Part shown: positions 1,728-35,466 of the stretch, in pieces | How the letters are laid out: the number at the start of each line of letters is the position of its first letter | How positions within the stretch are numbered: position 1 is the first letter of the stretch | NCBI GenBank assembly: GCA_015654525.1 | Contig: JAATGT010000061.1 | Coordinates: 1 to 50,896, forward strand | Direction of reading: 5' to 3' | DNA length: 50,896 bases | From: Bacteroidales bacterium | Lineage (GTDB): Bacteria; Bacteroidota; Bacteroidia; Bacteroidales; Paludibacteraceae | The notes under the pieces: model-generated | The model's input: the letters and a program-made list of their open reading frames with translations, nothing else | Told to the model about the DNA's origin: nothing | Database searches by the model: none | Translations under genes and position numbers: made by a program

Positions 1728-3197
1728 TTATTGAATACTGTTTAATAGGTTCAATTTACCATCGTCAATCAGTTTGATAATCAACTCTCCAAACAATGTA
1801 TTCTGCCAGGCAAACCAGGGGCGTGTATAATTGCTTGCGTCATCTTTATGGAAGGACTCGTGCATAAAACCCGTTCCGGCATCGGTGTTCAAAAGCATGT
1901 TGATACAGGTTTTGATTTCTTCATCGTTTGTGCTGGTAAAAGCTCTCATCATAATGCTCATAGGCCATATCATATCATATCCTACGTGAGGTCCACCAAT
2001 GCCTTCGCCTGCTTTTCCTTTGAAGAAATAGGGGTTGTCTTTGCTCCAGACAAATTTGCGGGTGTTTTGATAAATTGGGTTATTCACCCGGAGGTCGCCC
2101 ATATAGGCCAATCCCAATAAGCTGGGTACATTGGCATCGTCCATGAGCAACTGATTGCCAAAACCATCTACCTCGAATGCATAAATCTTTCCGTATTTAG
2201 GGTGATTGTAGATAGCATATTTGTTGATTGCTGCCTCCACTTCTTTTGCCAGGCTGTTACATTTAGCCGACAAAGCTGTGTTTTTGTTGACCGTGGCCAG
2301 TATTTCGGCAGCTTTTCTCAATGAAGTAACCGCAAAGAAATTGGATGGTATAAGAAACTGAAAAGTAGTTGCATCGTCGGACGGACGAAAGGCGGAGGCA
2401 ATCAACCCAACCGGATTTACCGGATTGCCCAGCCCATTGTTGGAGTTTGTGTCCAACTGGCGATCTGTTTTACGTTGAAATTTATAAGGTCCTACTCCGT
2501 TTTTCCGTTGTTGCTCGGTAAAGGTTTTCAGCACCAATTCAATTGCCTTAAGCCAATCGTCTGAAAACACACTGGTGTCGCCGGTTTCTTTCCAGTATTC
2601 GTACGCCAGCCTTATGGGGTAACAAAGCGAATCTATTTCCCATTTTCGTTCGTGAAGATCGGGTTTCATATCCGTCATGTCCGTCATCCATTCTCCTCCG
2701 GTAGGTCCGTCATTAAATGCATTGGCATAGGGATCAATACCTATACATTTAAACTGTCGGCGAATAACTCCCGCCAACATTCTCTTCAGCTTCGGGTCTT
2801 TATTAGCAAAGCGTATATAAGGCCATACCTGTGCTCCTGAGTCGCGAAGCCACATGGCATGAATATCACCGGTGTACACAAAGGTATCGTCTTGTCCATC
2901 TATTTCACGGAAATGAACAGTCGTATCCAGTGTGTTGGGAAAACAGTTCTCGAACATCCAGGCAAGTCGGGGATTCCTTAATACGCGTTTTATTGCAGCT
3001 ATCTTAGCTTCTACTTCGGGAGAAACAAACAAGCGGTCTTCCATGTTGGGTCGGTGCGAGGCGAATACTCTTGTGTTGTCGCTCACTGCGGTTACGCTAC
3101 TTTGCGAAGTGGCATTTACGCTGCGGATGCTCCCAAAAGCCAGAAAGAGTGATGCAACCATCAATCCGGCAGGGACAAAGTTCTTATTTCTTTTCAT
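1728..3197 (-). CDS. GH125 family exo-alpha-1,6-mannosidase
   Basis: ORF with signal peptide; GH125-like TGDIHAMWLRDSGAQVWPYI and GGEWMTDMTDMKPDLHERKWEIDSLCYPIRLAYEYWKETGD. Confidence 0.9.
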   Translation of the reverse strand: MKRNKNFVPAGLMVASLFLAFGSIRSVNATSQSSVTAVSDNTRVFASHRPNMEDRLFVSPEVEAKIAAIKRVLRNPRLAWMFENCFPNTLDTTVHFREIDGQDDTFVYTGDIHAMWLRDSGAQVWPYIRFANKDPKLKRMLAGVIRRQFKCIGIDPYANAFNDGPTGGEWMTDMTDMKPDLHERKWEIDSLCYPIRLAYEYWKETGDTSVFSDDWLKAIELVLKTFTEQQRKNGVGPYKFQRKTDRQLDTNSNNGLGNPVNPVGLIASAFRPSDDATTFQFLIPSNFFAVTSLRKAAEILATVNKNTALSAKCNSLAKEVEAAINKYAIYNHPKYGKIYAFEVDGFGNQLLMDDANVPSLLGLAYMGDLRVNNPIYQNTRKFVWSKDNPYFFKGKAGEGIGGPHVGYDMIWPMSIMMRAFTSTNDEEIKTCINMLLNTDAGTGFMHESFHKDDASNYTRPWFAWQNTLFGELIIKLIDDGKLNLLNSIQ

Positions 3198-3240
3198 AAA
3201 ATCGATTATTCTTTATTCAACAATTAAATTTGATTTTTCT

Positions 3241-4164
3241 TTATTTTGCATACTCCAGCACCACTTCTACCGGAAAATGATCGGATGGAACACGAGCCAG
3301 ATATTGTTGTAATGAAACTTCAGATGGAAAGTTTGCCGATTTAATTTCTTTTGCATTATCCACCTTTATCCGGTAGGTATCCGTCAACACGCCATAACGC
3401 ATTACGTGTAGGTCGGATGTAACAAAGATATGATCAATACGACTATCAGTTTTTAAATTGGGATCGAAGTTATTGAATGTTCCGTTGGGTGCATAAAGTA
3501 CTTTCGCCAGCTTGTAGGCGTCTTGCAGTTTGCCCGAATTCTGAATCAGTGCGTAGCTTTCGCTTTGCTGATCCACATTAAAATCGCCGGTCAAGATAAC
3601 CGGGTCTTTACCGCACATTTCTTTGATTTTGTTTAGTACCAGTTTTGCGCTTTGTCTCCGGGCTTCTACTCCAATATGATCCATGTGGAGGTTGAAAAAC
3701 CAAAAGCGAAATCCACTCTTTTTGTCCTGAAAATTTCCCCAGGTACAGATGCGGGGCAATACAGCATCCCATCCTTTGTTGGGTTTATCTGTTACTTCCG
3801 ACATCCAGAAATGCCCCGACCGGAGAAGTTTAAATTTGTCGGTTTTATAAAAAACGGGTGCATATTCTCCTTTTTCTTTTCCATCGTCGCGTCCTACTCC
3901 GATATATGCATAGCCGGGTAAGGAGCTTAGTAGGTCTGTCAATTGATGCTGTAAGACTTCCTGTGCTCCAAAGATATCGAAATCGTGAAACTGAATAATT
4001 TTACAAATAACCGGACAACGTTTTTCCCAACCATTGCCGTTGGACAGGTCGCCGGCATTTTCATAACGAATATTATAAGTGGCTATGGTTAGTTTTTGTG
4101 CATGTAAGGCAGCTGTGCAAAGCAACATACCTACAACCAAAAAGCCTGAAATTGTTTTTTTCAT
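3241..4164 (-). CDS. Endonuclease/exonuclease/phosphatase (EEP) family secreted protein
   Basis: Signal peptide; IATYNIRYEN, GAQEVLQHQL, LTGDFNVD, SDHFPVEVVL motifs. Confidence 0.88.
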   Translation of the reverse strand: MKKTISGFLVVGMLLCTAALHAQKLTIATYNIRYENAGDLSNGNGWEKRCPVICKIIQFHDFDIFGAQEVLQHQLTDLLSSLPGYAYIGVGRDDGKEKGEYAPVFYKTDKFKLLRSGHFWMSEVTDKPNKGWDAVLPRICTWGNFQDKKSGFRFWFFNLHMDHIGVEARRQSAKLVLNKIKEMCGKDPVILTGDFNVDQQSESYALIQNSGKLQDAYKLAKVLYAPNGTFNNFDPNLKTDSRIDHIFVTSDLHVMRYGVLTDTYRIKVDNAKEIKSANFPSEVSLQQYLARVPSDHFPVEVVLEYAK

Positions 4165-4200
4165 TTAGATTACAATTTAAGCAGTGATTAAACTGAATAA

Positions 4201-4243
4201 AATGTGAGTTTTTTCTGAACAAGGCTCAGAAAAAACTCACATT
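4201..4243. other. Perfect 18-bp stem, 7-nt loop intergenic hairpin
   Basis: AATGTGAGTTTTTTCTGA-acaaggc-TCAGAAAAAACTCACATT. Confidence 0.9.
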
Positions 4244-4251
4244 GGGTTATA

Positions 4252-6534
4252 CTATTTTCTCAGTTCTGTAGAGAAAGAGTAGGGGAAATCGGTCTCTTTT
4301 GTACCACGCTGCTTGTTGGGAAGGTCCGACATCTGAAACCGGATTTTAGCTCCTTGTGTCAGGAGTTCCTGAGTCAGATAATTTTTCGGAAAAGGACTTT
4401 CGTTCACAGTCATCGAGGAGATATATCTATTGGCTTTTGAATTATTCTCTGTTTCGATAGTTACCTGTTTTCCATTTTCAAGATGGAGTTTTACACTTTT
4501 GAACAGGGGAGAGCCTAACACATACTCATTACTTCCGGGACATACTGGATAAAAGCCAATGGCCGAAAAAACGTACCAGGCAGATGTCTGACCATTATCT
4601 TCGTCGCCACAATAGCCGTCGGGTGCCGATGTGTATAGTTTGTCCATCACTTCGCGAATCCAGTACTGTGCTTTCCAGGGTTCGCCCGAATAATTGTATA
4701 AATAAAGCATGTGCTGTATGGGTTGGTTACCGTGGGCATATTGTCCCATATTCATGATTTGCATTTCACGAATTTCGTGAATAACTCCGTGGTAATAACT
4801 GTCGTCAAAAGCAGGTGACATAACAAATACTGAATCCATCATGCGGTTAAAGTTTGCTTTTCCTCCCATCAGATTAATCAGTCCTTGTGGATCGTGGAAT
4901 ACCGACCAGGTATAATGCCAGCTGTTTCCTTCGGTAAAGGCATCCCCCCATTTCAATGGATTGAATGGCGACTGAAAGCTGCCGTCCTGATTTTTACCCC
5001 GCATTAGTTTCTGTGTGGGGTCAAACAGGTTTTTATAGTTCAGGGCACGTTGGGCGTAAATGCCGATTTCTTTTTCTGATTTTCCTAATTTTTTCCCTAA
5101 CTTGTAGATGCACCAGTCGTCGTAGGCATATTCCAGTGTTCGCGCTGCATTTTCTTTGATATTTACATCGTACGGTATATAACCAAGTTTGTTGTAATAC
5201 TCGTATCCTAAACGTCCGGTTGAACTGATTTTCGGATGTACTGCATTGGTTCCATGCACAACAGCTTTCCATAATGTTTCAACATCATATCCCCTTATCC
5301 CTTTCAGATAAGCATCTGCCACAATGGATGCCGAGTTATTTCCAACCATACAACCTCTGTGCCCCGGACTTGCCCATTCGGGAAGAAAGCCACTTTCTTT
5401 ATATGCATTCACCAGACCTTCCTGCATTTTTGCATTCATCGATGGATACATCAGGTTGACAAATGGAAACAGGCAGCGAAAAGTATCCCAAAAACCACTG
5501 TCGGTAAACATGTAGCCGGGTGATACCTGTCCGTTGTAAGGACTGTAGTGAACCGCTTTGCCTTTAGCGTCAATTTCGTAGAAGCTCCGTGGAAATAATA
5601 CCGAACGGTAAAGGCAGGAATAGAATGTGCGTAGATTATCGATGTTACCATCTTCTACCTCAATTTTACCTAATACCCTATTCCATTCTTTCCTGCCTTT
5701 TTCTTTTATCTGGTCAAATGAGTCGTTGCCAAGTTCTTTTAGATTAAGTTCTGCCTGTTCGAAACTAATGAATGACGATGCCACCCGTGCATGAACAACT
5801 TCCGCTTTTTTGGTAGAAAAACCGATGATAGCTTCTGCATGTTTGTTCTCGGTTTCCAACCGGTTTTGCTTCATCTCGTTTTCACTAACAGTGGACTTAT
5901 AAGTAAACGGTTTATCGAAAACAATCACAAAGTAATTTTTAAAATTATCCGGTACCCCACCGTTGTTTTTAGTTGTGTACCCGATAATTTTATTCTCGCC
6001 GGGGATAATCTTCACATACGATCCTTCATCCAGGGCATCCACCACAATAAACGATTTCTCGTTTTGTGGAAATGTAAACCGGAATATTGCTGCACGCATG
6101 GTGGGTGAAATCTCGGTTAATACATCATGATCCGTTAGGTATACACTATAATAATACGGTTTTGCAATTTCGGCTTTGTGTGAAAACCAACTGGCTCTTT
6201 TTTCCTCATCAAATTTGGGCTCACCGGTTACGGGCATAATTGCAAATTGCCCGTAATCGTTGATCCATGGACTTGGTTGGTGGGTTTGTTTGAACCCTCT
6301 TATTTTGTCGGCATCGTAGGTGTATGCCCAACCATCGCCCATCATGCCGGTTTGTGGCATCCAAAAGTTCATGCCCCAGGGCAAAGCTATGGCGGGATAC
6401 GTGTTTCCGTTCGACAAAATATGCTTGGACTGCGATCCAACCAAGGTGTTTACATAATCCACAGGTGTGATAGCCTGTGTTCGTAAACAGTTAACTAATA
6501 AAACAACAACAAATATTATCTGAATCTTTCTCAT
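4252..6534 (-). CDS. GH92 family alpha-mannosidase
   Basis: 760 aa; VDYVNTLVGSQSKHILSNGNTYPAIALPWGMNFWMPQTG, TDSGFWDTFRCLFPF, GYCGDEDNGQTSAWYVFSAIGFYPVCPGSNEYVLGSPLF. Confidence 0.93.
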   Translation of the reverse strand: MRKIQIIFVVVLLVNCLRTQAITPVDYVNTLVGSQSKHILSNGNTYPAIALPWGMNFWMPQTGMMGDGWAYTYDADKIRGFKQTHQPSPWINDYGQFAIMPVTGEPKFDEEKRASWFSHKAEIAKPYYYSVYLTDHDVLTEISPTMRAAIFRFTFPQNEKSFIVVDALDEGSYVKIIPGENKIIGYTTKNNGGVPDNFKNYFVIVFDKPFTYKSTVSENEMKQNRLETENKHAEAIIGFSTKKAEVVHARVASSFISFEQAELNLKELGNDSFDQIKEKGRKEWNRVLGKIEVEDGNIDNLRTFYSCLYRSVLFPRSFYEIDAKGKAVHYSPYNGQVSPGYMFTDSGFWDTFRCLFPFVNLMYPSMNAKMQEGLVNAYKESGFLPEWASPGHRGCMVGNNSASIVADAYLKGIRGYDVETLWKAVVHGTNAVHPKISSTGRLGYEYYNKLGYIPYDVNIKENAARTLEYAYDDWCIYKLGKKLGKSEKEIGIYAQRALNYKNLFDPTQKLMRGKNQDGSFQSPFNPLKWGDAFTEGNSWHYTWSVFHDPQGLINLMGGKANFNRMMDSVFVMSPAFDDSYYHGVIHEIREMQIMNMGQYAHGNQPIQHMLYLYNYSGEPWKAQYWIREVMDKLYTSAPDGYCGDEDNGQTSAWYVFSAIGFYPVCPGSNEYVLGSPLFKSVKLHLENGKQVTIETENNSKANRYISSMTVNESPFPKNYLTQELLTQGAKIRFQMSDLPNKQRGTKETDFPYSFSTELRK

Positions 6535-6536
6535 AC

Positions 6537-9026
6537 TTACTTCAACTTATTTTCAAGCATTTTAATAAAATATCCACCGACTACTGAACGTGCCTGAAAT
6601 CCGCGTTGATTTGGCTTGTCTGTAAATATCCAATCGGACATGGGAACGCGGTCGCTTGTTTCGTTCATAAACAGATACACGGGATGGATGAATTGTTCAA
6701 AAGTGGCCTGATCATTAGCCAGTGTTGCAGTCCACATAATCCAGTCGGTTTTGGTGTAAGTTTCTCTGTTATCTAAAGGCAAACCGTATTTATTTTGTTT
6801 GGTCAGATAGTATTTTATTTCTTTTTCTGCAATTTGGTTCGGGAAGATATTTGTCTTTAAAATTTTATCCCAAACCAGATTGTATTTCTGACTCCAGGTA
6901 TCCTGTTTGTCGAAGGTCAAACGATAGTGATCGCCATCATTTGCTAACTTTTCCCATTCGGTTGCCATGTCTTTGGCTTTTGTGTAGTAGGCTTTTGCCT
7001 GGTCTTTTTTGTCCAACATATCGGCCATATAGGCATACGATGCAACTCCCATGATGGCTTTGATAGAAAGATTGGTATTGTGTGCGAAATGCCCTGCAAA
7101 ATCATCGGTACAAAGTTGGTTTTCCGGGTTAAGTCCTTTCTCAACCAGATAATCGGTCCAGGTGGTTAGTACGTTCCAGTGTTTCTCTGCATATCTTGCA
7201 TTTCCTTCTGCTGCAGCTATTGCCGCTGTCAGAACAAGCATGTTACCACCTTCTTCAACCGGCATATCGCCACCGTAAGTCTGTCCGTTGCCAATAGGAT
7301 AAGTACCTATGTCATGTGCAGGGAATGGCTTAGTCCATTTACCACTTTCGCTATAATAATAAATGAAATTTATCAATCCTTTGGCCAGTTCCGGATTGTA
7401 ATATAAGAACAATGGGGATGATGGATAAGTTACATCCACGGTTCCGATAGATCCATTGCTAAAGTTTTCTTTAGAAAGGAACAATAAATCACCGTTTGGA
7501 GCTTCTGCCAGTTTATGAGCTGCAATTGCCTGACGATATGCAGCAGCACATAGCGCAGCATACTCTTTACCACCCGATTGGGTTGCATCTGTTATCAACT
7601 TTCTATCAAATGCATTGCATCTGCCAATTAATGATTTATATTCCTGATTTGCTTTCTGAAACTGCCCTACTATTGTCTGGTCGTTGGTGGAATTCCAATA
7701 AGGACGAAGGTTTTTGCCAAAATACTGAACGGAATAAATATCATCGTAACCAACCATGATTTTTCCGGCAACAGCTTTGTTGACATTACCCAACGATTGC
7801 GTCAGCGATAAACGATCGGTAGCGCTTTCGCGTTTAGTGATCATCTCTTTTTGTTTCCCGTAGATAAATCCTTTTCTTAAGTCATAACTATCGCCAATGG
7901 CGTGAATCATATTTTTTTTGTCGCCGACCAGGTAGAAATACCCCCAGTCAATTCTCAGATCATCTCCTTTTTTAGCCAGAATCTGTTGGTCCGCGCTTCC
8001 GGTTTTGAGAAAAAACAGATCTCCGTCGGTAAAACCTTCCAATTTCGATTTTTGCAGCGGTTTGTCTAATGCCCATGCCGTTGAAGCTTCGAAATAGATG
8101 CTCACCTCGTGGGCTTTTCCATCGTTAGACACAGCTTCATAAGAGATGTAATTTACCGGACGGGAGAGAAGTTTCAGGTCATCCATAAAGAGTGGTGCCG
8201 AAAAAGTCAGTTTTAGATTAACACCCCCGCATTGGAATACGTAATGTGTCTGTGTAGCCTGAACATCTACTGATTTTTGTACTGCAGTTTGTGGCATTAA
8301 CTCCTGATTTTCTTTTTCAACGACTAAACCAAAATCAAGTAACCCGTTTCCTACTCTGTTGCGGCAATATCCGGCAATAACATTTTCTCCTTTTTTCAGT
8401 GTAGCCAAAACCTCAGGGGATAATGGCTGAAGAGCATTTTTTTTGCAGGTATTTCCGGTGTTTACCACTTCTATTCCGTTGATGTAGATAATCGCATCAT
8501 CGTCGTGTGAGAATTCCAGAAATACTTTTTTACCGGCCAGATCTTTGTTCAGATTGATGGTACGTCTGACCCAGATAAATTCAGATTGCCAGTTTGTTTT
8601 GGCTGTAAATTCATTCTCGGTTGTACCAAAAGCGCCCGAACCTTCTTTCCAGCCCGTATCGTCAAAATTCTTTTTTGTCCAGTTGTCTGCAGGTTGTGTG
8701 GTTGTATATTTTCCAACCCATTTTCCCTGTTCCGAAGTTGGTATTAGGGTGAGTAAGGTGACATCTTCCGTCCCCATAAAACGATATACTTTTTTATCCA
8801 CTTTGATGGCACCCAGTAAAGGAAAATCTTTTCCCGTCCAGTGTTTTACACTGCCATCATAGAGCTTATCGGTGAATGCCCATCCACTTGTGTAAGGATC
8901 GATTGTAATCAATGGATAGGCTGATGGCCTGAGATTGTTTTTTACGACATTAAAATCTTCTCCACGTGCAATGCCTGCAAATAGAAAGACTCTTAGTGAG
9001 AATAGTGTTATTAGTTTCTTAATCAT
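6537..9026 (-). CDS. DUF5127/DUF4965/DUF1793 (glutaminase A-like) protein with inserted carbohydrate-binding-like domain
   Basis: 829 aa, signal peptide; ARYAEKHWNVLTTWTDYLVEKGLNPENQLCTDDFAGHFAHNTNLSIKAIMGVASYAYM; extra beta-rich segment WTKKNFDDTGWKEGSGAFG...VRRTINL...FSHDDDAIIYINGIEV. Confidence 0.82.
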   Translation of the reverse strand: MIKKLITLFSLRVFLFAGIARGEDFNVVKNNLRPSAYPLITIDPYTSGWAFTDKLYDGSVKHWTGKDFPLLGAIKVDKKVYRFMGTEDVTLLTLIPTSEQGKWVGKYTTTQPADNWTKKNFDDTGWKEGSGAFGTTENEFTAKTNWQSEFIWVRRTINLNKDLAGKKVFLEFSHDDDAIIYINGIEVVNTGNTCKKNALQPLSPEVLATLKKGENVIAGYCRNRVGNGLLDFGLVVEKENQELMPQTAVQKSVDVQATQTHYVFQCGGVNLKLTFSAPLFMDDLKLLSRPVNYISYEAVSNDGKAHEVSIYFEASTAWALDKPLQKSKLEGFTDGDLFFLKTGSADQQILAKKGDDLRIDWGYFYLVGDKKNMIHAIGDSYDLRKGFIYGKQKEMITKRESATDRLSLTQSLGNVNKAVAGKIMVGYDDIYSVQYFGKNLRPYWNSTNDQTIVGQFQKANQEYKSLIGRCNAFDRKLITDATQSGGKEYAALCAAAYRQAIAAHKLAEAPNGDLLFLSKENFSNGSIGTVDVTYPSSPLFLYYNPELAKGLINFIYYYSESGKWTKPFPAHDIGTYPIGNGQTYGGDMPVEEGGNMLVLTAAIAAAEGNARYAEKHWNVLTTWTDYLVEKGLNPENQLCTDDFAGHFAHNTNLSIKAIMGVASYAYMADMLDKKDQAKAYYTKAKDMATEWEKLANDGDHYRLTFDKQDTWSQKYNLVWDKILKTNIFPNQIAEKEIKYYLTKQNKYGLPLDNRETYTKTDWIMWTATLANDQATFEQFIHPVYLFMNETSDRVPMSDWIFTDKPNQRGFQARSVVGGYFIKMLENKLK

Positions 9027-11351: not shown

Positions 11352-11398
11352 CAAATATGTGAAAACAGGATTATTTTTAAGGTTATTTTCCGGTTATT
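11352..11398 (-). promoter_or_regulatory. Candidate promoter and direct-repeat operator of the leftward PUL-1 arm
   Basis: Coding strand AATAACCGGAAAATAACCTTAAAAATAATCCTGTTTTCACATATTTG; matches 14291-14337 with identical block spacing; CATATTTG resembles the Bacteroidetes TAnnTTTG -7 box. Confidence 0.6.
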
Positions 11399-11463
11399 TT
11401 TGATGTAATTTCATTAACCAGTGCTGAAATAAGAGATAAAATTATTTTAGGCACTAAACAATA

Positions 11464-14043
11464 CTATTTTTTTTGAGTTCGTTTCTTTCCGCCTGATAGT
11501 TCAGAGAATGATACAGGATATTCTTTTCCCATCATTTTCCTGTATTCCTTTACAAAAAGGAAATAACGTTTTTTTGCATCGTTTTCAAGTCTTAGTTTCG
11601 TTAAGGCATGAATGATGTAATAAACTGCATCATCGTTTATCGGATCAATATAAAACAGAGCGTCACACAGTATAATGGTGAGATTATAAGCTTCGTTATT
11701 AAAGGCCTTTTCAACGTTAATTAATAATGCCGGTTCTAGTATTTTTTCCATATTCTCTTTGAATGTGTCAAAATCAGGCATATCAATTGATTTTAGAAAT
11801 TTTCCCTGTTTTATTATATTGATAAATTCCAAACTGTTCTGTTCTATTGTATCAGTCTCGATAAGTTCAATGCACCGCATATAATCACAGTAACATAAAG
11901 TAGGAATAAGAACAATCTTAAATAATCCTTTTTCATAAACAAGTTCGATTCCATCCAGCTCTTTCATTATTCTTCTCAGATGATTGATTGTCACGCCTCT
12001 TGAATTTTTAACCTTATCCTCAGGTTTGTCAGGCCAAAGTAATTCGCTCAATCGTTGAGAAGAGATACCTTCTGTTAAACTGTATTGCAGTATAGTCAGA
12101 AAGGCTTGCTTTAATTTGGAACTGAACATGTATGTAATGTCTCTGTTTTTCCTATCTAAAACTCGAAATTGGCCGAACAGGTAGATACTGTTTGGCTTTG
12201 GAGCTACACTTTGAATCTGCGTAGCTTTGTTCGGAGTATTTTCATGAGTATTCAGATAGACTATTTCTTCTTCTTCTCGCAATTGCCCTTTTTTGCGTTT
12301 CACAATTATGAATGCTGCTATTGCACCCACCAACAGAAAAGTAAATACTGAGATTATCATGAGCATATTGATGCCAGAGGACGATTCTAATGAGGTCAAT
12401 TCCTGATGACTGATTGGAGGAAAAGCTAATGAATACACCTTAATACACGAAGATATATCGTAATTGTCAAATTCCTGAACAACGGCAAATAAGCAGTTCA
12501 TGCTGGCTGAATAATATATATTTGCTTTTGTTTTTATTTTTTCGGATCGAATAGGAATTGAGTTTCCTAAAATTTTATACGAACCATCTTTAATAGAAAA
12601 CTGGTATAGCTTAAGGAATGTTTTTGAAAAATGTTCAGGATAGCAAAGCGTATAAAAACAGGAGTCATTCTGAATAATCATTTCTCTCACGGGAACGATA
12701 TTTTCTTTGCTCCAGGGTAATTCCCACAGTTTAGTGACCGTATTGTTTTTTAGGTTGATTCTGTGCAGGTCGTAAAAATAACGGCGTCCTACTATCTGTT
12801 CGCCGGATTCATTCCCCATACCACCGAATATATAAAGTGAATTGTTGTCTTTTCGGTAACCCATCGATGAAAAATAACGAGGATTAATCTTGTTTCCACT
12901 CAATTGCAATGAATCCCATTTGTTAGTCTTAAAGTTGTAGGAGAACAGGCTCTTGCTGTATTGCATATTTCCAAAGCCACCGAATCCACCTAATCCACCA
13001 AAAATGAAATAGCGCTTATTTTCAGAATCGAAACAAGTGCTGTGATGATGTAGTTGCATATAGATTGAAACATAACTCACAATATTCCATTTTTTTGTTT
13101 TTAAGTCAAGAACGGCTACGTTTGGTCCTTTCTCTTTTTTCTCATTACATACCTCGTAGACATATAATTTTTGCGCATTGTTGTCTAAGAAATTTGTCCC
13201 TAGAAATATATCGACCGGACATTTTTCCTGAAATGCTTCTGAAGTTTTACTTCCGGTACGCAGGTTGTAAGTTATGAGAGAATCTCTGTTAAAAACGTAT
13301 AGATTGTCTGTTTTATTGTCGAAGTTACAACCGGCAATTCTGGCAGATTTGAATGCCTGTTTATATGTCCAGTAATAAGCGTCATTGATAAGCCATACCG
13401 GATTGGTTATGTGACCAAAGCTTTCTCCTTTTATATTATGGGCAACATTTCCTTTACTCTCTTTGAGTGGAAACATGTAAGTGTGTTTTTTGTCGGATAC
13501 CGATAGCTGTTTGATTGCAAATGAAGGTACATCGATTAAATATTCGCTTCTTCCAAAGCAGATGTCAGGCCTCCAGACTTGAGGCAAATTGATATTGGTT
13601 ACTTTGAATATTTGATTGTTAAGAGCTAATGACAATGAATGCTTCTTAGAATCAAAAGCAATAGAAACTCTGAACCAATGAAGTTTTTGTAATTCTTCAT
13701 TCCGCAATCTTACTGTAATCAGATTTTTTCCACCTTCTTTATTGAATTTAAACAATGTAAAAGAGCCGTCAATGTAATAGGATAGATTATATGTTTTATT
13801 AGCCTCATTGTTTTTGATTCGGACTATATAACCGAAGTGAGAAGGCTCAAGCAGAGAGATGTCAAAGCTTATATCAAGTTTTTCAGAGAACAAGGGAGAT
13901 TTATGGCTGAATACATCATAAGATGTTCGCTCGTCAATAAGATGTTCACTACCATTAAATCTCAGCCCACTAGCAAATGTGTTTGTGTTTAATAATAGAA
14001 AATAAATAAGAAGGAATCCGCTATAATGGAAGTGTAATTTCAT
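11464..14043 (-). CDS. Membrane-anchored transcriptional regulator: LamG-like + kelch-like periplasmic region, TM helix, SARP-like wHTH + BTAD
   Basis: Signal peptide MKLHFHYSGFLLIYFLLL (the ORF-track start at 14076 is TTG; ATG is at 14043); YFIFGGLGGFGGFGNMQYSKSLFSYNFKTNKWDSL and LYIFGGMGNESG kelch repeats; TM MLMIISVFTFLLVGAIAAFIIV; IYLFGQFRVLDRKNRDIT...LLWPDKPEDKVKNSRGVTINHLRRIMKELDGIELVYEKGLFKIVL. Confidence 0.8.
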   Translation of the reverse strand: MKLHFHYSGFLLIYFLLLNTNTFASGLRFNGSEHLIDERTSYDVFSHKSPLFSEKLDISFDISLLEPSHFGYIVRIKNNEANKTYNLSYYIDGSFTLFKFNKEGGKNLITVRLRNEELQKLHWFRVSIAFDSKKHSLSLALNNQIFKVTNINLPQVWRPDICFGRSEYLIDVPSFAIKQLSVSDKKHTYMFPLKESKGNVAHNIKGESFGHITNPVWLINDAYYWTYKQAFKSARIAGCNFDNKTDNLYVFNRDSLITYNLRTGSKTSEAFQEKCPVDIFLGTNFLDNNAQKLYVYEVCNEKKEKGPNVAVLDLKTKKWNIVSYVSIYMQLHHHSTCFDSENKRYFIFGGLGGFGGFGNMQYSKSLFSYNFKTNKWDSLQLSGNKINPRYFSSMGYRKDNNSLYIFGGMGNESGEQIVGRRYFYDLHRINLKNNTVTKLWELPWSKENIVPVREMIIQNDSCFYTLCYPEHFSKTFLKLYQFSIKDGSYKILGNSIPIRSEKIKTKANIYYSASMNCLFAVVQEFDNYDISSCIKVYSLAFPPISHQELTSLESSSGINMLMIISVFTFLLVGAIAAFIIVKRKKGQLREEEEIVYLNTHENTPNKATQIQSVAPKPNSIYLFGQFRVLDRKNRDITYMFSSKLKQAFLTILQYSLTEGISSQRLSELLWPDKPEDKVKNSRGVTINHLRRIMKELDGIELVYEKGLFKIVLIPTLCYCDYMRCIELIETDTIEQNSLEFINIIKQGKFLKSIDMPDFDTFKENMEKILEPALLINVEKAFNNEAYNLTIILCDALFYIDPINDDAVYYIIHALTKLRLENDAKKRYFLFVKEYRKMMGKEYPVSFSELSGGKKRTQKK

Positions 14044-14290
14044 AACATATTGAAAAAGGTGTTTTACAGATTGCAAAAATAATCAATAATACGGATAGAA
14101 GAGTTCGAAATAAGAAAAATGCGATGAAAGTAATCGTTCTCCAAGGATATAAAGGTTCATGATTGTTTCTGATTTTTTCATAAAACAAGGCAAAGTAGAA
14201 TGACTTAAATGAACTGTAATGTACATAAAATGAATACTATAAAATATTTTATATATTTGCTTTGATGTGATTAATGTTTTTTTGTTGGTC

Positions 14291-14337
14291 AATAACCCGT
14301 TTTTAACCCATTAATTAATCACTGGAGCTGATATTTG
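14291..14337 (+). promoter_or_regulatory. Candidate promoter and direct-repeat operator of the rightward PUL-1 arm
   Basis: AATAACCCGTTTTTAACCCATTAATTAATCACTGGAGCTGATATTTG; same layout as 11352-11398. Confidence 0.6.
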
Positions 14338-16348: not shown

Positions 16349-17779
16349 ATGAAAAAAATAATTTTCACTATTCTATGTCCTTTACTTGTTTTTAGTGCTT
16401 GCGGTAAAAATTCCGATTCGGACAATGGAGGAGGAAATGTCACCGAAAGTCTTGCCAAACAAAATCTTCTACGCGCAATACAGATTGTGGATAATGCTAT
16501 AAATTGCCATTTTACAGGAGATGGTATGGCCATGGCTAGATATTACAATCCTTATACTGGTATTCGTTCCGAAGAAAAAGGAAGTGTCTGGATGTACACA
16601 AGTTCTATTGAAGCAGTAAATGCAATATTGCATGCGCTTCAGACTCAAAAAGATCATGGAGATACCGAACTTTATGATTTGCATTTTACTAAGTATACGC
16701 AATTGCTCAATAAACTTTATGAAAACGCAGCTTACTACAAAGGAACTTTTACATTAACATCATATACGCAAACCAGGAAGTGGTCGGTGTATGGCGTTGA
16801 TAGAGGAGGTTCTAAAGGATCTGCATTTGTGGAAGGAATTCATAACGTGTACGACGATCAGCAATGGCTGATAAGAGAATTGGTGGAAGCTTACAAATTG
16901 ACCGGGAATAACATTTACCTGACAGAAGCCGAATATCTTACCGATTATGTGCTTGATGGTTGGGATTGTGTGCCTGATGCCAATGGCAAAGAATATGGAG
17001 GCATCACCTGGGGACCTGGATATGTAACAAAACATTCGTGTAGCAATGGTCCTATGGTAAGTCCTTTGGTCTGGTTATATGAACTCTACAAAGAAAAAGA
17101 TGACCAGATAACATATCGTTATATCAGCACTGATGGTAGTCGAAAAACAATGAATATGAAAAAAAGCGACTATTATCTGAAATTTGCAAAAGCTGTATAT
17201 GATTGGCAGAAGAATAATTTAATGCGATCGGATGGAGTGTATTATGATATGATGGGAGGGTGCGATCCAACCTGTGATGTTGTCTATGAAACGGTGAATG
17301 GAGTTCAATATCGCCAACATGTCAATTTACGGGATAAAGTTGGAACAGCCTATTCTTATAATACAGGTACGATGCTTTCCGGAGCCGCAGACCTTTATCG
17401 GGTAACAGGTATCAGTACGTATCTGGATGATGCTTCAAAGCTGACAAAAGCAAGTTTTGGGTGTTTTGCTAAGAAAGATGCTACAGTGAGTGGATATTAC
17501 ACTTACGAGTTGAGTGGTTTCAATAACTGGTTTAATGGAGTGTTGATGCGTGGATATATAGATGTGTATCCGATATTCAAAAACGCATCAGTGTGTATTG
17601 GCAGTTTTCAGCAGAATCTAGACTATGGATATGAGAAATTCCTTTACAAGGGATTTTTGCCTACTAATTTATTACTTGGTTGGAGTCATGACAACAGTAA
17701 TAATAGTATGGAGGGAATGTTCACATTTGCTTTTGCTGCAGAGTATGCTACATTAGCTCGCTATGAAATTGAAAAATAA
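16349..17779 (+). CDS. GH76 family alpha-1,6-mannanase lipoprotein
   Basis: Lipobox LVFSACGKN; GH76-like YDDQQWLIRELVEAYKLTGNNIYLTEAEYLTDYVLDGWD and YNTGTMLSGAADLYRVTG. Confidence 0.88.
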   Translation: MKKIIFTILCPLLVFSACGKNSDSDNGGGNVTESLAKQNLLRAIQIVDNAINCHFTGDGMAMARYYNPYTGIRSEEKGSVWMYTSSIEAVNAILHALQTQKDHGDTELYDLHFTKYTQLLNKLYENAAYYKGTFTLTSYTQTRKWSVYGVDRGGSKGSAFVEGIHNVYDDQQWLIRELVEAYKLTGNNIYLTEAEYLTDYVLDGWDCVPDANGKEYGGITWGPGYVTKHSCSNGPMVSPLVWLYELYKEKDDQITYRYISTDGSRKTMNMKKSDYYLKFAKAVYDWQKNNLMRSDGVYYDMMGGCDPTCDVVYETVNGVQYRQHVNLRDKVGTAYSYNTGTMLSGAADLYRVTGISTYLDDASKLTKASFGCFAKKDATVSGYYTYELSGFNNWFNGVLMRGYIDVYPIFKNASVCIGSFQQNLDYGYEKFLYKGFLPTNLLLGWSHDNSNNSMEGMFTFAFAAEYATLARYEIEK

Positions 17780-17800
17780 AACCAATTTAAATTTAACAGT

Positions 17801-20800
17801 ATGATAAAAAAACAACATGTAAAAAAGATGAAATCATTACGCTTTCTGAACATGTTACTCTTACTTGTTTCCGTTTTCCCGTTGTCTGTAATGGCTCAGG
17901 AAAAATTAGTGACAGGTCAGGTAACTGATCAAAACAATGAACCGATTATCGGAGCTAACATCATCATAAAAAACACGACTAATGGAACAGTGACAAACAT
18001 CGATGGACGATTTTCCATAAATGCTCCGGCAAATGCAACTTTAGTATTCAAGTATGTGGGGCTCACAACTCGTGAGGAAAAAATCAACGGACACTCCGTT
18101 GTTAATGTGGTAATGACCGAAAATAACACATCGTTAGAAGAAGTTGTCGTTGTAGGCTACGGTGTACAAAAGAAAGTAACTTTAACAGGAGCAGTCTCCG
18201 GAGTAACTGGTGAGGATTTGATTAAAACCAAGAATGAAAACCCTCAAAACATGCTTACAGGTAAAGTTGCAGGGGTTCGCGTATGGCAAAAAAGTTCAGA
18301 ACCTGGATCGTACAACGATAACTTTGATATTCGAGGCATGGGATCTCCCCTTGTAGTTATCGACGGAGTTCCACGTGAGGTTGCAGATTTCCAAAGATTA
18401 AACACCAATGACATTGAAGATATATCTGTTTTAAAAGATGCTTCAGCCGCGATTTATGGTGTACGTGGAGCTAACGGAGTTGTTCTTGTTTCCACTAAAA
18501 AAGGATCCACTAATGGTAAGTCTAAAGTTACGTATAACGCATCTTTTACGCTTCAGCAACCAAGCAAGATGCCGGAACTTGCCAATGCTTATCAAACCAT
18601 GACGTTGTACAATGAAAAATCGATGAATAACATAAACGGCGGGAGTCTAACTTATACAAATGCTGATTTTGAGTCTTTTAGTAATGGGAGCCGCCGTTCT
18701 ACAGACTGGAATTCATTAATATTTTCAAGTTATGTACCCCAAACACAACATGATATTAGCATTTCCGGCGGAAATGAGAAAACTCAATATTATGTGAGCA
18801 TGGGCTATCTTTCTCAGGCTGGATTTTTCAAATCAGGAGATTTAAATTATAACAAAACTAACTTGCGTAGTAACATTGACTCAAAAATAGCCCCCGGATT
18901 AAGGTTTAACTTAAACGTAGCTGGTATGCTCGACCAACAAAACAATCCTTATTCTACATCTACAGATATTATTCGTAATTACTGGAGACAAGGAGTGTTA
19001 TATCCTGCATATGCAGATGACGCCAATACTATGTTGAATTACGAAGGACTTGATCTAGAAGAAAACACAGTGGCTAAAATGACTGCCGACATTTCAGGTT
19101 ATAGAAAATATACTCAGAAAAATTTACAAACATCGGCTACTCTTACATATGATTTCGAAACAGTCTCACACACCTTGAAAGGGTTATCAGCTAAATTTTT
19201 ATATAGTTTTGACTACAAAATGTATGACAACACTGCATATCGCAAAGAATATTATCAATATGCTTATAGCAGCATAACAAATTCATACGATAAAAAACTA
19301 TATAATTCCAGTTCTCCAAGCCAATTAAGCAGATCATTCTACAGTAAACAACAGAATCTATGGCAATTCTTATTAAATTACAATCGTAGTTTTGGCCAAC
19401 ATAATCTGACTGGTGTTTTTGGTTTTGAAAGCCAAAAACGGGTTGGGGATAATTTTTATGCTCAAAGAAATCTGGCTTTCTCAACCCCATATCTTTTTGC
19501 CGGTGAGGATGAAAATCAATTAGGCGGGATGTCGACATCTTCATCTGATTTATATGATCTCGCTTATGCATCTAGGATCGGAAGGTTAAACTATACATAC
19601 GGAACAAGATATATCGCCGAAGTTCAATTTCGTAACGATGGTTCTTCAAAATTTGCTCCCGGACATCAATGGGGATTTTTCCCATCTGCCTCTTTAGGCT
19701 GGCGCATATCTGAAGAGCCATTGTTTAAAAGTATCGACTTTCTTTCATTTACCGATCAGTTAAAACTCAGAGTTAGCTATGGAGAAATGGGGGATGACCA
19801 GAATGCAAACTCTTATGGTTGGATATCCGGATACACTTATCCTGCTACTAATAGCAATTCTGCCAGTGGCTATTACAATCAATGGGCTCCTGGTTATATA
19901 TTCAATGATCAGTTTGTATCTGCCGTTAGCAGATCTGCCCTACCAAACACATCAACAACTTGGATGACATCCAAAACATTTGACTTTGGAGTTGATTTCG
20001 AAGGCTGGAATGGCTTATTTGGATTTACTTTTGACTATTTTGACCGTCATAGAAGTGGAATATTTGCTCAAAGTTCAACAACATTACCGACAGTAGTTGG
20101 TGCTGAAGCTCCACAAGAAAATTTAAATAGTGACCGTTATTTCGGTATCGACTTAGAGTTAACCCATAAAAATAAAATTGGTGACTTGACATATAAAGTA
20201 AAGGCTATAGGAACCATTACCCGTCAAATGTATTTAACGGCTGTACAAAATGGAGGTTATGGTAATTCTTATGATAAATGGCGTAACGACAATCTTAACA
20301 ACCGTTACCAGGGTATTGTTTGGGGATATGGAAGTGCTGGCCGTTATACTAGTTGGGAAGATATTCGTACGTATAATGTATATAAAGAAAATAATGTGCT
20401 TCCCGGAAATTATAAATATGTTGACTGGAATGGCGATGGAGAAATTAATAGTCAGGATGTTCATCCAACAACATATGACCAAACGCCATGGTTAAACTTT
20501 AGTTTAAGTTTTGATGGAACCTATAAAAGATTTGACCTTAGTGTATTGTTCCAGGGATCAGCTCTCGGTTCAATGACTTATCAAGAGCCTCTTTACTCCA
20601 TATGGGGTAGCAATGGAGGTGGTGCCCTCACTCAATATCTTGATCGTTGGCATCCGGTAGATCCAAACGCAGATCCCTACGATCCGAACATAAAATGGGC
20701 AAGTGGTTATTATGGTTATACAGGAAATTATCCTTATAGCAATTCTGAATTTAATACTGTAAACACTACTTATTTACGTCTTAAAAGTGTTGAAATAGGC

Positions 20801-20980
20801 TACACTTTACCCAAGAGTAAAGCACTTTCATCCATGAATTTGAGGGTTTTTGCAAATGCCTATAATTTATTGACATTAACCAAAGTCAAATTTGTTGATC
20901 CAGAACATCCGAGTGACGATCTTGGAAGGTTATATCCTCTTAATAAAACCTATACGTTAGGTCTGTCTCTTTCATTTTAA
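17801..20980 (+). CDS. SusC/RagA family TonB-linked outer membrane protein
   Basis: 1059 aa; carboxypeptidase-like domain, EEVVVVGYGVQKKVTLTGAVSGV, IDGVPREVADFQRLNTNDIEDISVLKDASAAIYGVRGANGVVLVSTKKG. Confidence 0.97.
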   Translation: MIKKQHVKKMKSLRFLNMLLLLVSVFPLSVMAQEKLVTGQVTDQNNEPIIGANIIIKNTTNGTVTNIDGRFSINAPANATLVFKYVGLTTREEKINGHSVVNVVMTENNTSLEEVVVVGYGVQKKVTLTGAVSGVTGEDLIKTKNENPQNMLTGKVAGVRVWQKSSEPGSYNDNFDIRGMGSPLVVIDGVPREVADFQRLNTNDIEDISVLKDASAAIYGVRGANGVVLVSTKKGSTNGKSKVTYNASFTLQQPSKMPELANAYQTMTLYNEKSMNNINGGSLTYTNADFESFSNGSRRSTDWNSLIFSSYVPQTQHDISISGGNEKTQYYVSMGYLSQAGFFKSGDLNYNKTNLRSNIDSKIAPGLRFNLNVAGMLDQQNNPYSTSTDIIRNYWRQGVLYPAYADDANTMLNYEGLDLEENTVAKMTADISGYRKYTQKNLQTSATLTYDFETVSHTLKGLSAKFLYSFDYKMYDNTAYRKEYYQYAYSSITNSYDKKLYNSSSPSQLSRSFYSKQQNLWQFLLNYNRSFGQHNLTGVFGFESQKRVGDNFYAQRNLAFSTPYLFAGEDENQLGGMSTSSSDLYDLAYASRIGRLNYTYGTRYIAEVQFRNDGSSKFAPGHQWGFFPSASLGWRISEEPLFKSIDFLSFTDQLKLRVSYGEMGDDQNANSYGWISGYTYPATNSNSASGYYNQWAPGYIFNDQFVSAVSRSALPNTSTTWMTSKTFDFGVDFEGWNGLFGFTFDYFDRHRSGIFAQSSTTLPTVVGAEAPQENLNSDRYFGIDLELTHKNKIGDLTYKVKAIGTITRQMYLTAVQNGGYGNSYDKWRNDNLNNRYQGIVWGYGSAGRYTSWEDIRTYNVYKENNVLPGNYKYVDWNGDGEINSQDVHPTTYDQTPWLNFSLSFDGTYKRFDLSVLFQGSALGSMTYQEPLYSIWGSNGGGALTQYLDRWHPVDPNADPYDPNIKWASGYYGYTGNYPYSNSEFNTVNTTYLRLKSVEIGYTLPKSKALSSMNLRVFANAYNLLTLTKVKFVDPEHPSDDLGRLYPLNKTYTLGLSLSF

Positions 20981-20998
20981 TAATAAATACTGATACTT

Positions 20999-23077
20999 AT
21001 GAATATAAAATTGATAAATATAAAAAGAATATTTTTTCTGCCTTTGATAAGTGTGATATTTTTTACCGGCTGTTACGATTTAGACATTCAGCCTAAAAAT
21101 ACAATTACAGATGAAGATTTAATGACCAATGAAGCGGGGATGGATATTTATATGGCACGTATGTACAGTTATATGCCATTCGAAGATTTTAAATATATGG
21201 CGCAATGGGGAATTACTTATAATGCCTGGCTGGGAGCATTTGGAATTGAAGGTACAGGCGAAGCATTGAATCGTGATGGTATATGTACAGCCTTTACAGG
21301 CGAAGATACTCCATATTGGAGTCAGGCTTTTTCTTTAGTGAGAGATGCAAATTACCTTCTGGAAAATTTGCCGAAATATAAAAACAACTTTAAGGAAGAA
21401 ACTTATAATCATTATTTAGGTGAAGCTTATTATGTCAGAGCTACAGTTTTTTATGCTATGGCAAAAAGATTCGGAGGAATTCCACTTGTAACTAAAGTAA
21501 TTAAATATCCTGCAGAATTGGATAATTTGGAAGTTCCGCGTTCAAGCGAAAAAGAAACTTGGGATCAGATTTTAGCAGATTATGATAAGGCTACTGAATT
21601 TATGCAAACTACCAGTCCTAAGACCGGGTATTCAAACAAGTATGTGGCTTTGTCTTTCAAATCGGAAGCGATGTTATATGCTGGATGCGTTGCTAAATAT
21701 AATGAAACTGTTTCTGGACGGTTGACTGGTTTTGGATTAAAGACAGGTGTTCGTGTAATGGGCTTTGCAGATAATGAATGGCAGGACGCTTCTAAAAAAT
21801 ATTTTACAGAAGCTTATAAAGCCGCTAAAAAAGTGATGCAAGATGGAAAATATTCTCTTTATAAGAAAAAATGGTCGCCTACTGATCGTGAAGCGCAGTA
21901 TCAGAATATGGTGGATATGTTTAGCGATCTTACGAGCCCTGAGAATATATATGTAAAAGAATACCAGTATCCGACAATGACTCATGGATTTGATGCGTAT
22001 AATGCTCCTTTTATTTTCCGCGCACCTCTGTCCTCTGGAACTTGTCCTACTCTCGATTTTATGGAGTTGTTTGATGGGTTCAATCGTTATTCTGATGGAA
22101 CAATAAAGGTTACAGATGGGACTTCAAATACAAATGGTAATTATTTGATGTATGATACTCCTCTTGATTTCTTCAAAAATGCTGAACCTCGTTTACGTGC
22201 GTATGTAATTTTTCCCGGAGATGTATTTAAAGGAAAAGAAATTGAAATCAGAGATGGGGTTTATACAGGTTCTGCTCCTGTTAAACCATTGTTTACAGAT
22301 TATTCTTATGCAAATGCAGGGACTCTTTATCAGCATTTGAGTTCGTATAAAAGTTCGCCTAAAACTTTATATCTTAGCCCTAACTCTGGTACGAGCCAGG
22401 AATTAGTGGTCTATAATGGAGATACAATTACTGCTTCGGGTGCCAATGGCCCATTTTATGCGAATGGAGAAGCCTGTTTAACCGGATTATATTGTCGTAA
22501 ATGGTTAAATCCTGATCCTTCATTTGAAGCGGGAGAAGGTAAATCCGCTCAACCATTTATTCTGATGCGTTATGCTGAAGTGTTGCTTAATGCAGCTGAA
22601 GCAGCCGTGGAGTTATCGCTGGCTGGAGTTGCATCACCAGATGGTGATGATCTTTTGCAAGTTGCAACCAACGCTGTAAATCAAATCAGAGAAAGAGCAG
22701 GGGCTTCATTGCTTACAAGTAGTATTACTTCTAATGAAATCGGACGTAACATTGTTCGTAAAGAACGTCGTAAAGAACTTGCACTTGAACATAAAACGAA
22801 ATGGGATTTAAGACGCTGGCGTGTATGGCATTATGATGGGCGTGATGGATTTTGGGGTGAAGTTAGAAATAAAGATTTATACAGTAGTAGCTCTAGTTTC
22901 AGATTCCGTGGTTTGTATCCTTTTTTCTCGACGGCAACAAATAAATACTTCTTTGATGCACATTTTCAGGCTGTAAGTCAGAAAACATTTTCTTATAATA
23001 TACTTGATTATTACTTTGCAATCCCCAGTGGTGAAGTCTCTAAAAGTGCTGTTATCGATCAACAACCTAACAGATAA
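20999..23077 (+). CDS. RagB/SusD family outer membrane lipoprotein
   Basis: Lipobox FFTGCYDLDI; YYVRATVFYAMAKRFGGIPLVTK; RKERRKELALEHKTKWDLRRWRVW. Confidence 0.96.
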   Translation: MNIKLINIKRIFFLPLISVIFFTGCYDLDIQPKNTITDEDLMTNEAGMDIYMARMYSYMPFEDFKYMAQWGITYNAWLGAFGIEGTGEALNRDGICTAFTGEDTPYWSQAFSLVRDANYLLENLPKYKNNFKEETYNHYLGEAYYVRATVFYAMAKRFGGIPLVTKVIKYPAELDNLEVPRSSEKETWDQILADYDKATEFMQTTSPKTGYSNKYVALSFKSEAMLYAGCVAKYNETVSGRLTGFGLKTGVRVMGFADNEWQDASKKYFTEAYKAAKKVMQDGKYSLYKKKWSPTDREAQYQNMVDMFSDLTSPENIYVKEYQYPTMTHGFDAYNAPFIFRAPLSSGTCPTLDFMELFDGFNRYSDGTIKVTDGTSNTNGNYLMYDTPLDFFKNAEPRLRAYVIFPGDVFKGKEIEIRDGVYTGSAPVKPLFTDYSYANAGTLYQHLSSYKSSPKTLYLSPNSGTSQELVVYNGDTITASGANGPFYANGEACLTGLYCRKWLNPDPSFEAGEGKSAQPFILMRYAEVLLNAAEAAVELSLAGVASPDGDDLLQVATNAVNQIRERAGASLLTSSITSNEIGRNIVRKERRKELALEHKTKWDLRRWRVWHYDGRDGFWGEVRNKDLYSSSSSFRFRGLYPFFSTATNKYFFDAHFQAVSQKTFSYNILDYYFAIPSGEVSKSAVIDQQPNR

Positions 23078-23097
23078 TTAATGAATAGAATTTAATA

Positions 23098-23931
23098 ATG
23101 TATATCGAAAATAATATGAAAAAAATAGCATTTTATATCTTACTATGCGGGCTGTTTTCTTTTAGTTCCTGCAGTTTGTTCGAAATAGACAATTATGATG
23201 CTCCTTCCGAAACACTAAAAGGTGAGGTAGTAGATGTTGCCACAGGAGATCCTGTGCAAACAGATCAGGGCAGTGAAGGAATTCGTGTCCGTTTAACAGA
23301 ACTTAGTTATGGAGATAACGTTACGCCTAATCCAGATTTCTTTTGTATGCCAAATGGGTCATTCCAAAATACAAAATTATTTAAGGGAAAATATAACATT
23401 CGTATTGATGGACCGTTTATTCCGCTTATCCGAGAGGATGAACGTGGTGTGCCTCTTGCTGATGAGACTAAAACAACCGATATAAGTGGACTCACTAAAG
23501 TTCGGTTTGAGGTACAACCTTTTTTGAAAGTAGAGTTCGTAAGTGAGCCAACAGTAATGAATGGTAAAATTACAGCAAAGGTGCGTGTGTCGCGAGCTGT
23601 ATCAGAAAACGATTTTCAGGCAAAGATAGAACCAATGGGAGGGTACAGCGCAAGTTTTCTTAATGTGACAGATGTGCAACTGTTTGTAAGTTACTCTTCA
23701 AGTGTTGGATACCGAGCACGCGATGATCGTTGGTCCAGTAAAATTGAATACTCAGGTTCTACATTTGGTTCATTGCTGGGTAAAACGATCACGATAGAAT
23801 CAAACGGAGCCATTCCTTCGGGGCGTACTGTTTTTGTACGAGCTGCATCACGTATTAACTATGATACTCCAAAGGGTAGTGGAACTCGCCGTTGGAATTA
23901 TAGTGAACCAGCAGAGGTGGTAATTCCTTGA
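23098..23931 (+). CDS. DUF3823 domain lipoprotein
   Basis: Lipobox FSSCSLFEIDNYDAPSETLKGEVVDVATGDPVQTDQGSEGIRVRLTE; downstream of SusD. Confidence 0.85.
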   Translation: MYIENNMKKIAFYILLCGLFSFSSCSLFEIDNYDAPSETLKGEVVDVATGDPVQTDQGSEGIRVRLTELSYGDNVTPNPDFFCMPNGSFQNTKLFKGKYNIRIDGPFIPLIREDERGVPLADETKTTDISGLTKVRFEVQPFLKVEFVSEPTVMNGKITAKVRVSRAVSENDFQAKIEPMGGYSASFLNVTDVQLFVSYSSSVGYRARDDRWSSKIEYSGSTFGSLLGKTITIESNGAIPSGRTVFVRAASRINYDTPKGSGTRRWNYSEPAEVVIP

Positions 23932-26173: not shown

Positions 26174-26262
26174 ATCTTTTTAATTTTGTCTATCGTCTTT
26201 AATCTTTACTCTTTGTTCTTTTGTCTTTGTTCTCTCCTCTTTTGTCTCTTCAAATCTTCTCA
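26168..26262. repeat. Low-complexity pyrimidine-rich spacer with degenerate tcttttgtctttgttc units
   Basis: ctttttaattttgtctatcgtctttaatctttactctttgttcttttgtctttgttctctcctcttttgtctcttc. Confidence 0.6.
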
Positions 26263-27035
26263 ATCTCTTTAAAATACCGGTACGTTCCGACTTTTAATTC
26301 ATAGGTTGAAGCTTCGTCGCATACAATGATGCCCCGCTGGTGTAACTGTAAGGCTGTGATGGTCCACATATGATTTACCGAACCTTCTACAGCTTGCTGA
26401 ACAGCCAGTGCTTTGTTGTGTCCGTTAACCATAATCAGTACTTCATGTGAGTCCATAATGGTTCCGACTCCTACTGTCAGTGCCAGCTTGGGAACCAGGT
26501 CCACATCGTTATTGAAAAACCGGGAATTAGCGATGATGGTATCTTGCGTCAAAGTTTTTATGCGGGTGCGGGAGTGTAAGGACGATCCCGGTTCGTTGAA
26601 AGCGATATGACCATCAGCGCCAATACCACCCAAAAACAGATGAATTCCACCCAACGATTTTATTTTCTGTTCATAAGCTTCACATTCAGCTTCCAGATCG
26701 GGGGCATTACCATCCAGTAGGTGTGCATTCTCTGGAAGGATATCAATATGGCTAAAAAAATTATCCCACATAAAACTGTGGTAACTCTGAGGATGAGCTT
26801 TGGGAATGCCAACATATTCGTCCATATTAAAGGTAACTACATGTTTGAACGAAACCTGTCCCAGATTATACATCTCGATGAGCTTTTTATAAGTGCTCAG
26901 TGGGGTAGATCCGGTTGGCAAGCCTAATACAAACGGACGTTCGGCTGTAGGGGCAAAACTCCGTATCTTGGTGGCAAGGTAATTGGCCACCCAGGTAGAT
27001 ATTCCTGAATAATCAGGTTGGATTATTAATCGCAT
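26250..27035 (-). CDS. nagB: Glucosamine-6-phosphate deaminase
   Basis: [57 protein letters not shown], all catalytic residues present. Confidence 0.95.
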
Positions 27036-28782: not shown

Positions 28783-28808
28783 TCCTCGTGTTTTAGTAAT
28801 CAAAGGGC

Positions 28809-28841: not shown

Positions 28842-28852
28842 AGCTCTGACAT

Positions 28853-35458: not shown

Positions 35459-35466
35459 CCAATAAT

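Follow-up and report, generated by a model that had tools for sequence, protein, structure and literature searches.

When two arms of a PUL diverge from the gene of a putative regulator, as they do in the window (the whole stretch of 50,896 nucleotides analysed here), a question arises as to what protein, if any, reads the promoters of the two arms, and whether both arms respond to the same one. The locus (Table 1) encodes glycoside hydrolases of families GH76, GH92 and GH125, a combination that we take to indicate alpha-mannan. Each arm is preceded by an element of 47 nt, and both elements read, letter for letter, as the sequence-only reading had given them, with TAACC, TAACC, TAATC and ATATTTG at the offsets that it had noted. 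In both operators, the repeats are spaced by 11 bp and then by 12 bp, and an 8-nt box, correctly recognised as similar to the Bacteroidetes -7 box, lies 9 nt past repeat 3. The half-sites are common to the two arms; the intervening letters mostly differ. While the three direct repeats stand as described, the operator is larger than was claimed, because an inverted half-site upstream belongs to it too.

Table 1. Coordinates of the operator elements and genes in the window
Feature	Position	Strand	Remark
Right element, 47 nt	14291-14337	+	precedes right arm
Right operator, inverted half-site GATTAA	14269..14274	+	reverse complement of TTAATC; 24 nt upstream of repeat 1
Right operator, direct repeat 1 TAACC	14293..14297	+	
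Right operator, direct repeat 2 TAACC	14304..14308	+	11 bp on
Right operator, direct repeat 3 TAATC	14316..14320	+	12 bp on
Right operator, -7-like box GATATTTG	14330..14337	+	5/6 to consensus TAnnTTTG; 9 nt after repeat 3
Left element, 47 nt	11398-11352	-	precedes left arm
Left operator, inverted half-site GGTTAA	11414..11419	-	23 nt upstream of repeat 1
Left operator, direct repeat 1 TAACC	11392..11396	-	
Left operator, direct repeat 2 TAACC	11381..11385	-	
Left operator, direct repeat 3 TAATC	11369..11373	-	
Left arm, -7-like box CATATTTG	11352..11359	-	5/6 to consensus TAnnTTTG
Regulator, 859 aa	11464..14043	-	encoded between the arms
Left arm gene 1, 733 aa	9088..11289	-	without Pfam match; begins 62 nt past the -7-like box
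Left arm remainder	1728..9026	-	four genes after the 733-aa gene
GtaA-like, left arm	6537-9026	-	
GH92, left arm	4252-6534	-	
Endonuclease/exonuclease/phosphatase family, left arm	3241-4164	-	
GH125, left arm	1728-3197	-	
Right arm gene 1, 602 aa	14534..16342	+	CarboxypepD_reg domains
Right arm remainder	16349..23931	+	four genes after the 602-aa gene
GH76, right arm	16349-17779	+	
SusC, right arm	17801-20980	+	
SusD, right arm	20999-23077	+	
DUF3823, right arm	23098-23931	+	
Isomerase-deacetylase fusion and adjoining isomerase gene	24185-27035		
Second PUL-like cluster	27358-46855	-	
Second SusC/SusD-like pair	41465-44623 and 39793-41454	-	
ROK/NagC-like gene	47309-48394		after the second PUL-like cluster

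An RNA element was rejected since the window has no Rfam match and the -7 box comes only after the repeats. The window also holds a second PUL-like cluster, with a GHL10-type hydrolase, a SASA esterase and a SusC/SusD-like pair, in which no triple-repeat operator was found and which is followed by a ROK/NagC-like gene. Elsewhere in the window, a glucosamine-6-phosphate isomerase domain is fused to a PIG-L deacetylase domain, and a second isomerase gene adjoins.

How specific is the array for this locus? Across the 4.16-Mb assembly, TAACC-N6-TAACC-N7-TAATC is matched exactly at two places, both in this locus, never with one mismatch and six times with two mismatches (reversed-pattern control, 19), so that the genome scan proposed as a check by the sequence-only reading found no unrelated exact match. 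The array was found in 25 of the 26 regulator-bearing genomes searched, where the fixed-spacing pattern yielded 36 matches, 28 at the PUL and 8 elsewhere; the latter are at the background level (control, 9). Among 100 relatives, six matches form pairs in three genomes with close orthologues of the regulator and 11 are scattered (control, 19), which is to say that the array is at the background level in relatives that lack the regulator. In a sample of the order, the 602-aa first gene was found in 8 of 393 genomes, seven of which hold a close regulator orthologue; the eighth (G536) is a fragmented assembly that matches the regulator more weakly, and here, too, the array stands upstream of the 602-aa gene (L176). 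Two more canonical arrays (L168 and L170) in the genome of Algoriphagus terrigena (that of L099) are not beside homologues of the window's PUL genes, and it is possible that they mark extra members of the regulon.

The conservation of the array was followed through 80 regulators with named records, spanning Bacteroidales, Sphingobacteriales and Cytophagales. Orthologues are also encoded by two culturable relatives, Dysgonomonas mossii DSM 22836 and Bacteroides xylanisolvens XB1A (L077 and L115). A strict three-repeat array lies within 3 kb of the regulator gene in 53 of the 80 loci, with the reversed pattern occurring 0 times in 458,131 bases, and relaxed versions are seen in four further loci (L108, L112, L117 and L136). 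Thus, the comparison of orthologous intergenic regions shows the array to be kept beside the regulator in all three orders. What is kept in the relatives is the repeat spacing and the distance to the box, not the spacer letters: the spacing between repeats 1 and 2 is 11 bp in all 66 operators collected (search window, 10-12 bp), that between repeats 2 and 3 is 12 bp in 60 of them (search window, 10-13 bp), and the best TAnnTTTG starts 9-10 nt past repeat 3 in 51. Several relatives (Sphingobacterium, some Chryseolinea) have a degenerate -7 box, and a T-rich spacer stands between the inverted half-site and repeat 1 in most. As to the target genes, 54 of 56 operators directly precede a same-strand alpha-mannan PUL gene, 53 of the 54 within 250 nt, several operators coming from closely related species, so that these counts are of non-independent events. 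The first gene past the operator is an orthologue of the 602-aa gene in 23 of the 56 cases, plus 14 Cytophagales-type genomes, and an orthologue of the 733-aa gene follows the operator in five loci.

Variations on this arrangement were seen as well. In ten operators, a fourth direct repeat precedes the other three, at a spacing of 11 or 12 bp. Several four-repeat operators (L082, L090, L096, L097, L101, L109 and L120) were inspected, and most of them again have an inverted half-site at a similar distance, about 24 nt, ahead of their first repeat. In very remote relatives, at about 25% identity, the arrays are looser or missing. At the locus of the closest orthologue (81% identity), the regulator and the left operator are separated by about 1.8 kb devoid of long ORFs (L066, 10580-12379); here, the operator has remained next to its target gene rather than the regulator. 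Paralogous regulators (L049, L050, L056 and L063-L065) adjoin PULs of other content, such as GtaA-like proteins with TIG proteins or a GxGYxYP hydrolase with LamG, and most of them have similar arrays, which suggests that SARP-type regulators form a family serving PULs for several substrates. The window's own genome encodes another paralogue (L004, C169:2064-4607; 27% identity), whose recognition helix differs (NNLSVNIVRLK); its 4.9-kb contig shows no clear operator.

The loci without an array are mostly of the Cytophagales type, in which a convergent PUL abuts the end of the regulator gene, the promoter of that PUL falling beyond the 8 kb analysed. Could these be counter-examples that use another motif? 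Their recognition helix is essentially unchanged, so that the array would be expected upstream of the first, distant gene of the PUL. Indeed, 14 of the 17 Cytophagales-type genomes scanned have it immediately before their orthologue of the 602-aa gene, with no match at the expected place in the other three. Hence, these loci were rejected as counter-examples: with the same recognition helix, the operator is at the far end of the operon. The suggestion that both arms form one regulon likewise fits the finding of two operators per genome, one at each arm, in the window's genome and in two relatives of the same genus; in a fourth relative, from the window's family, the right arm is on a separate contig and has retained the operator upstream (L206).

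Further evidence comes from the inverted half-site. The hexamer GRTTAA, which is the reverse complement of TTAAYC, is found 23-24 nt before repeat 1 with at least five of six letters in 51 of 57 three-repeat operators, and perfectly in 35, as compared to 6-11 of 57 at six other offsets. A possible link between this operator and the protein is offered by residue 688 of the recognition helix, which is His in 62, Asn in 16, Lys in one and Tyr in one of the 80 regulators, and Arg in a separate clade (L008/L232, L009/L231, L015/L234 and L233). In the Arg688 clade, repeats 1 and 2 read GTAAYC instead of TTAAYC (G in 7 of 8 half-sites versus 0 of 122), and the inverted half-site reads RTTAC instead of RTTAA. 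The two kinds of half-site thus vary in concert, which is what recognition of both by a single protein would predict; the covariation is that of a single clade, which counts as one evolutionary event. His versus Asn at this position shows no clear separation against C or T in the half-sites. Aligned by eye, residue 688 appears to correspond to Arg92 of AfsR, which contacts one base in each repeat (PMC10936776).

What kind of protein is the regulator? The full-length model comprises, in this order, a signal helix, a LamG-like beta-sandwich (residues 27-213), a beta-propeller (226-540), a membrane helix (about 558-580) and a SARP-fold module (617-838); the model would place the SARP end in the cytoplasm. 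Pfam recognises only Kelch families, within the propeller, and no family at all for residues 620-859 at E values up to 10, neither Trans_reg_C nor BTAD. A profile search of PDB sequences with the cytoplasmic part found no SARP; most of its matches aligned the C-terminal helices with TPRs. The AlphaFold (AF2) model of the cytoplasmic part, built with 54 homologues as input, has a mean pLDDT of 95.6 and shows an OmpR-type winged helix followed by an all-helical BTAD module. In a Foldseek search of the PDB, the only matches with E<1e-3 were AfsR (8hvr, 8k60) and EmbR (2fez, 2ff4), with E of about 1e-6 over 247-253 alignment columns at a sequence identity of about 15-18%. The earlier description of a SARP-like wHTH plus BTAD output domain is therefore borne out by the structure comparison and not by Pfam, where no model reports SARP or BTAD. 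Since the sequence searches give no SARP match, homology to SARPs rests on the predicted fold.

Could the array be read by some other, unlinked factor, such as a hybrid two-component regulator, an ECF sigma factor or a global regulator, with the Kelch-SARP protein being a mere neighbour? Binding of the array by the regulator is a prediction, and the alpha-mannan PULs of B. thetaiotaomicron have been assigned to hybrid two-component systems (PMC3878776). We nevertheless consider this possibility improbable: the array tracks the regulator through genomes and drops to background without it, accompanies paralogous regulators at PULs of other content, and changes its half-site along with the recognition helix. 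In addition, the motifs predicted for HTCS and SusR are pairs of sites, spaced by about 21 bp or 67-77 bp (PMC3878776), and differ in this from three repeats at 11 and 12 bp.

Taken together, these data make it very probable that both elements are operator-promoters of one regulon under the regulator encoded between the arms, and that the two arms are switched on together. The original proposal, that the elements are putative operators of this regulator, is well supported in silico by the genome scan, the conservation and the fold. From the operator anatomy, its conservation, its association with the regulator and the fold, all of which were computed, we infer binding, activation, mannan sensing and sigma adaptation, which can be envisaged as follows. 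The periplasmic LamG and Kelch sensor would bind an alpha-mannan oligosaccharide, and copies of the cytoplasmic module would line up next to each other along the same face of the DNA, each contacting one half-site through its recognition helix; at the inverted half-site, an additional copy would be bound, facing the other way. In its complex, AfsR occupies 11-bp repeats at -40 to -30 and -29 to -19 with two adjacent protomers, on which sigma region 4 rests in place of the -35 element (PMC10936776). If TAnnTTTG is placed at about -12 to -5, repeats 2 and 3 would fall in roughly the registers of AfsR, with repeat 1 and the inverted site further upstream. The two promoter-proximal copies would then sit roughly at the positions of the AfsR protomers (about -40 to -19), where the -33 element should be, and the bound copies would offer sigma region 4 a docking surface on a promoter without a -33 element ("sigma adaptation"). 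The GH76-SusC-SusD and 733aa-GtaA-GH92-GH125 arms would thereby be activated jointly. At the -33 position, taken as 17-24 nt ahead of the -7 box, 0 of 59 operators showed a TTG, so that the promoters look activator-dependent.

A regulator bound in this place might also repress, by occluding the -33/-7 region until mannan releases it, and the third repeat does cover the would-be -33 region, which makes occlusion geometrically possible. Repression appears very unlikely to us, as the SARP fold of AfsR is that of an activator, with extensive contacts to RNA polymerase (PMC10936776), as SusR, a PUL regulator of like membrane-sensor design, activates (PMC3878776), and as a weak -7 box without the -33 TTG is the mark of a promoter that needs help, not silencing. 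The likelihood that the elements reflect chance, or a recent duplication of one arm's promoter, is vanishingly small: although the local intergenic DNA is AT-rich, the half-site is short and looser patterns do match at random (control, 3 matches), chance is rejected by the whole-genome, reversed-pattern and offset controls, which range from 0 in the 80-locus scan to background levels in the genome scans, and duplication is rejected by the spacer letters, which differ between species and between the arms, where few letters between the half-sites are common, while the spacing is kept across orders.

Where, then, does a putative membrane-bound activator of this kind belong? Among membrane one-component regulators, those of the ToxR/CadC type similarly tie an OmpR-type wHTH to a periplasmic sensor by one membrane helix; unlike the present regulator, they have the DNA-binding domain at the N-terminus, no BTAD module and other sensor domains. 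In Bacteroidota, PUL control is usually described via SusR-like proteins, HTCS and ECF/anti-sigma pairs (PMC3878776). SusR-like proteins (BT3705 of B. thetaiotaomicron and its paralogues) are single membrane proteins with a periplasmic sugar sensor and a cytoplasmic DNA-binding end, and activate adjacent susCD operons (PMC3878776). This layout, including the adjacent susCD target, is found here too, with the membrane orientation taken from the model. However, the DNA-binding end of SusR-like proteins is reported to have no similarity to other DNA-binding domains, and the operators predicted for them are pairs of sites spaced by 67 or 77 bp (PMC3878776), a spacing not seen here. With HTCS, the regulator shares a membrane sensor that controls a neighbouring PUL, direct-repeat operators and alpha-mannan as the substrate class, but HTCS are built with kinase and AraC-type domains, and their motifs comprise two sites separated by about 21 bp (PMC3878776), whereas the present protein shows no histidine kinase, receiver or AraC-type HTH, its Pfam matches being to Kelch families only and its cytoplasmic part having the SARP fold only.

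The likeness to SARPs (AfsR, DnrI, ActII-ORF4 and PimR of Streptomyces, EmbR of Mycobacterium) lies in the fold, a wHTH with a helical BTAD, and in the operators, which in published cases are two or three direct repeats (three in several) of about 11 bp, roughly one helical turn, on one face of the DNA and usually overlapping the -35 region of a weak promoter (PMC10972967, PMC5930380, PMC10936776). Here, too, the repeats are of about 11 bp and, by the predicted position of the -7 box, the promoter-proximal ones overlap the -35 region at a fixed short distance. As fold, repeat geometry and promoter position agree, the regulator, as modelled, works like a SARP. There are also clear differences: SARPs are soluble and control antibiotic clusters, whereas the module here is C-terminal, behind a membrane helix and a periplasmic LamG-Kelch sensor, and is directed to sugar PULs; its half-site is TTAAYC, with a Bacteroidota -7 box; and the 11+12 spacing and the inverted fourth half-site are absent from the published operators compared, which have direct repeats only (PMC10972967, PMC5930380, PMC10936776). 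Because the curated sequence models give no match and the operator has an inverted half-site, we do not file the protein as a member of the SARPs.

On balance, we favour, with less assurance than for the regulon itself, the view that the regulator represents a fourth class of PUL regulators, widespread in Bacteroidota: membrane-tethered SARP-type activators with an asymmetric four-half-site operator, sigma adaptation and a residue-688 code. The operator would consist of one inverted and then three direct half-sites, and there is a hint that His or Asn at position 688 reads TTAAYC and Arg reads GTAAYC. Among open-licence papers, none was found that joins SARP/BTAD or Kelch to a Bacteroidota PUL regulator. 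A separate regulator class with a defined operator would make PUL promoters and regulons readable from sequence, at least for this class, and the compact operator could become a mannan-inducible promoter part. It would also make testable whether sigma adaptation by a SARP fold works with a Bacteroidota sigma factor, and whether one membrane sensor acts directly, without a phosphorelay. Thus, a well-studied activation mechanism of Actinobacteria would be linked to the sensing of sugars at the membrane in another phylum, whose promoter code differs.
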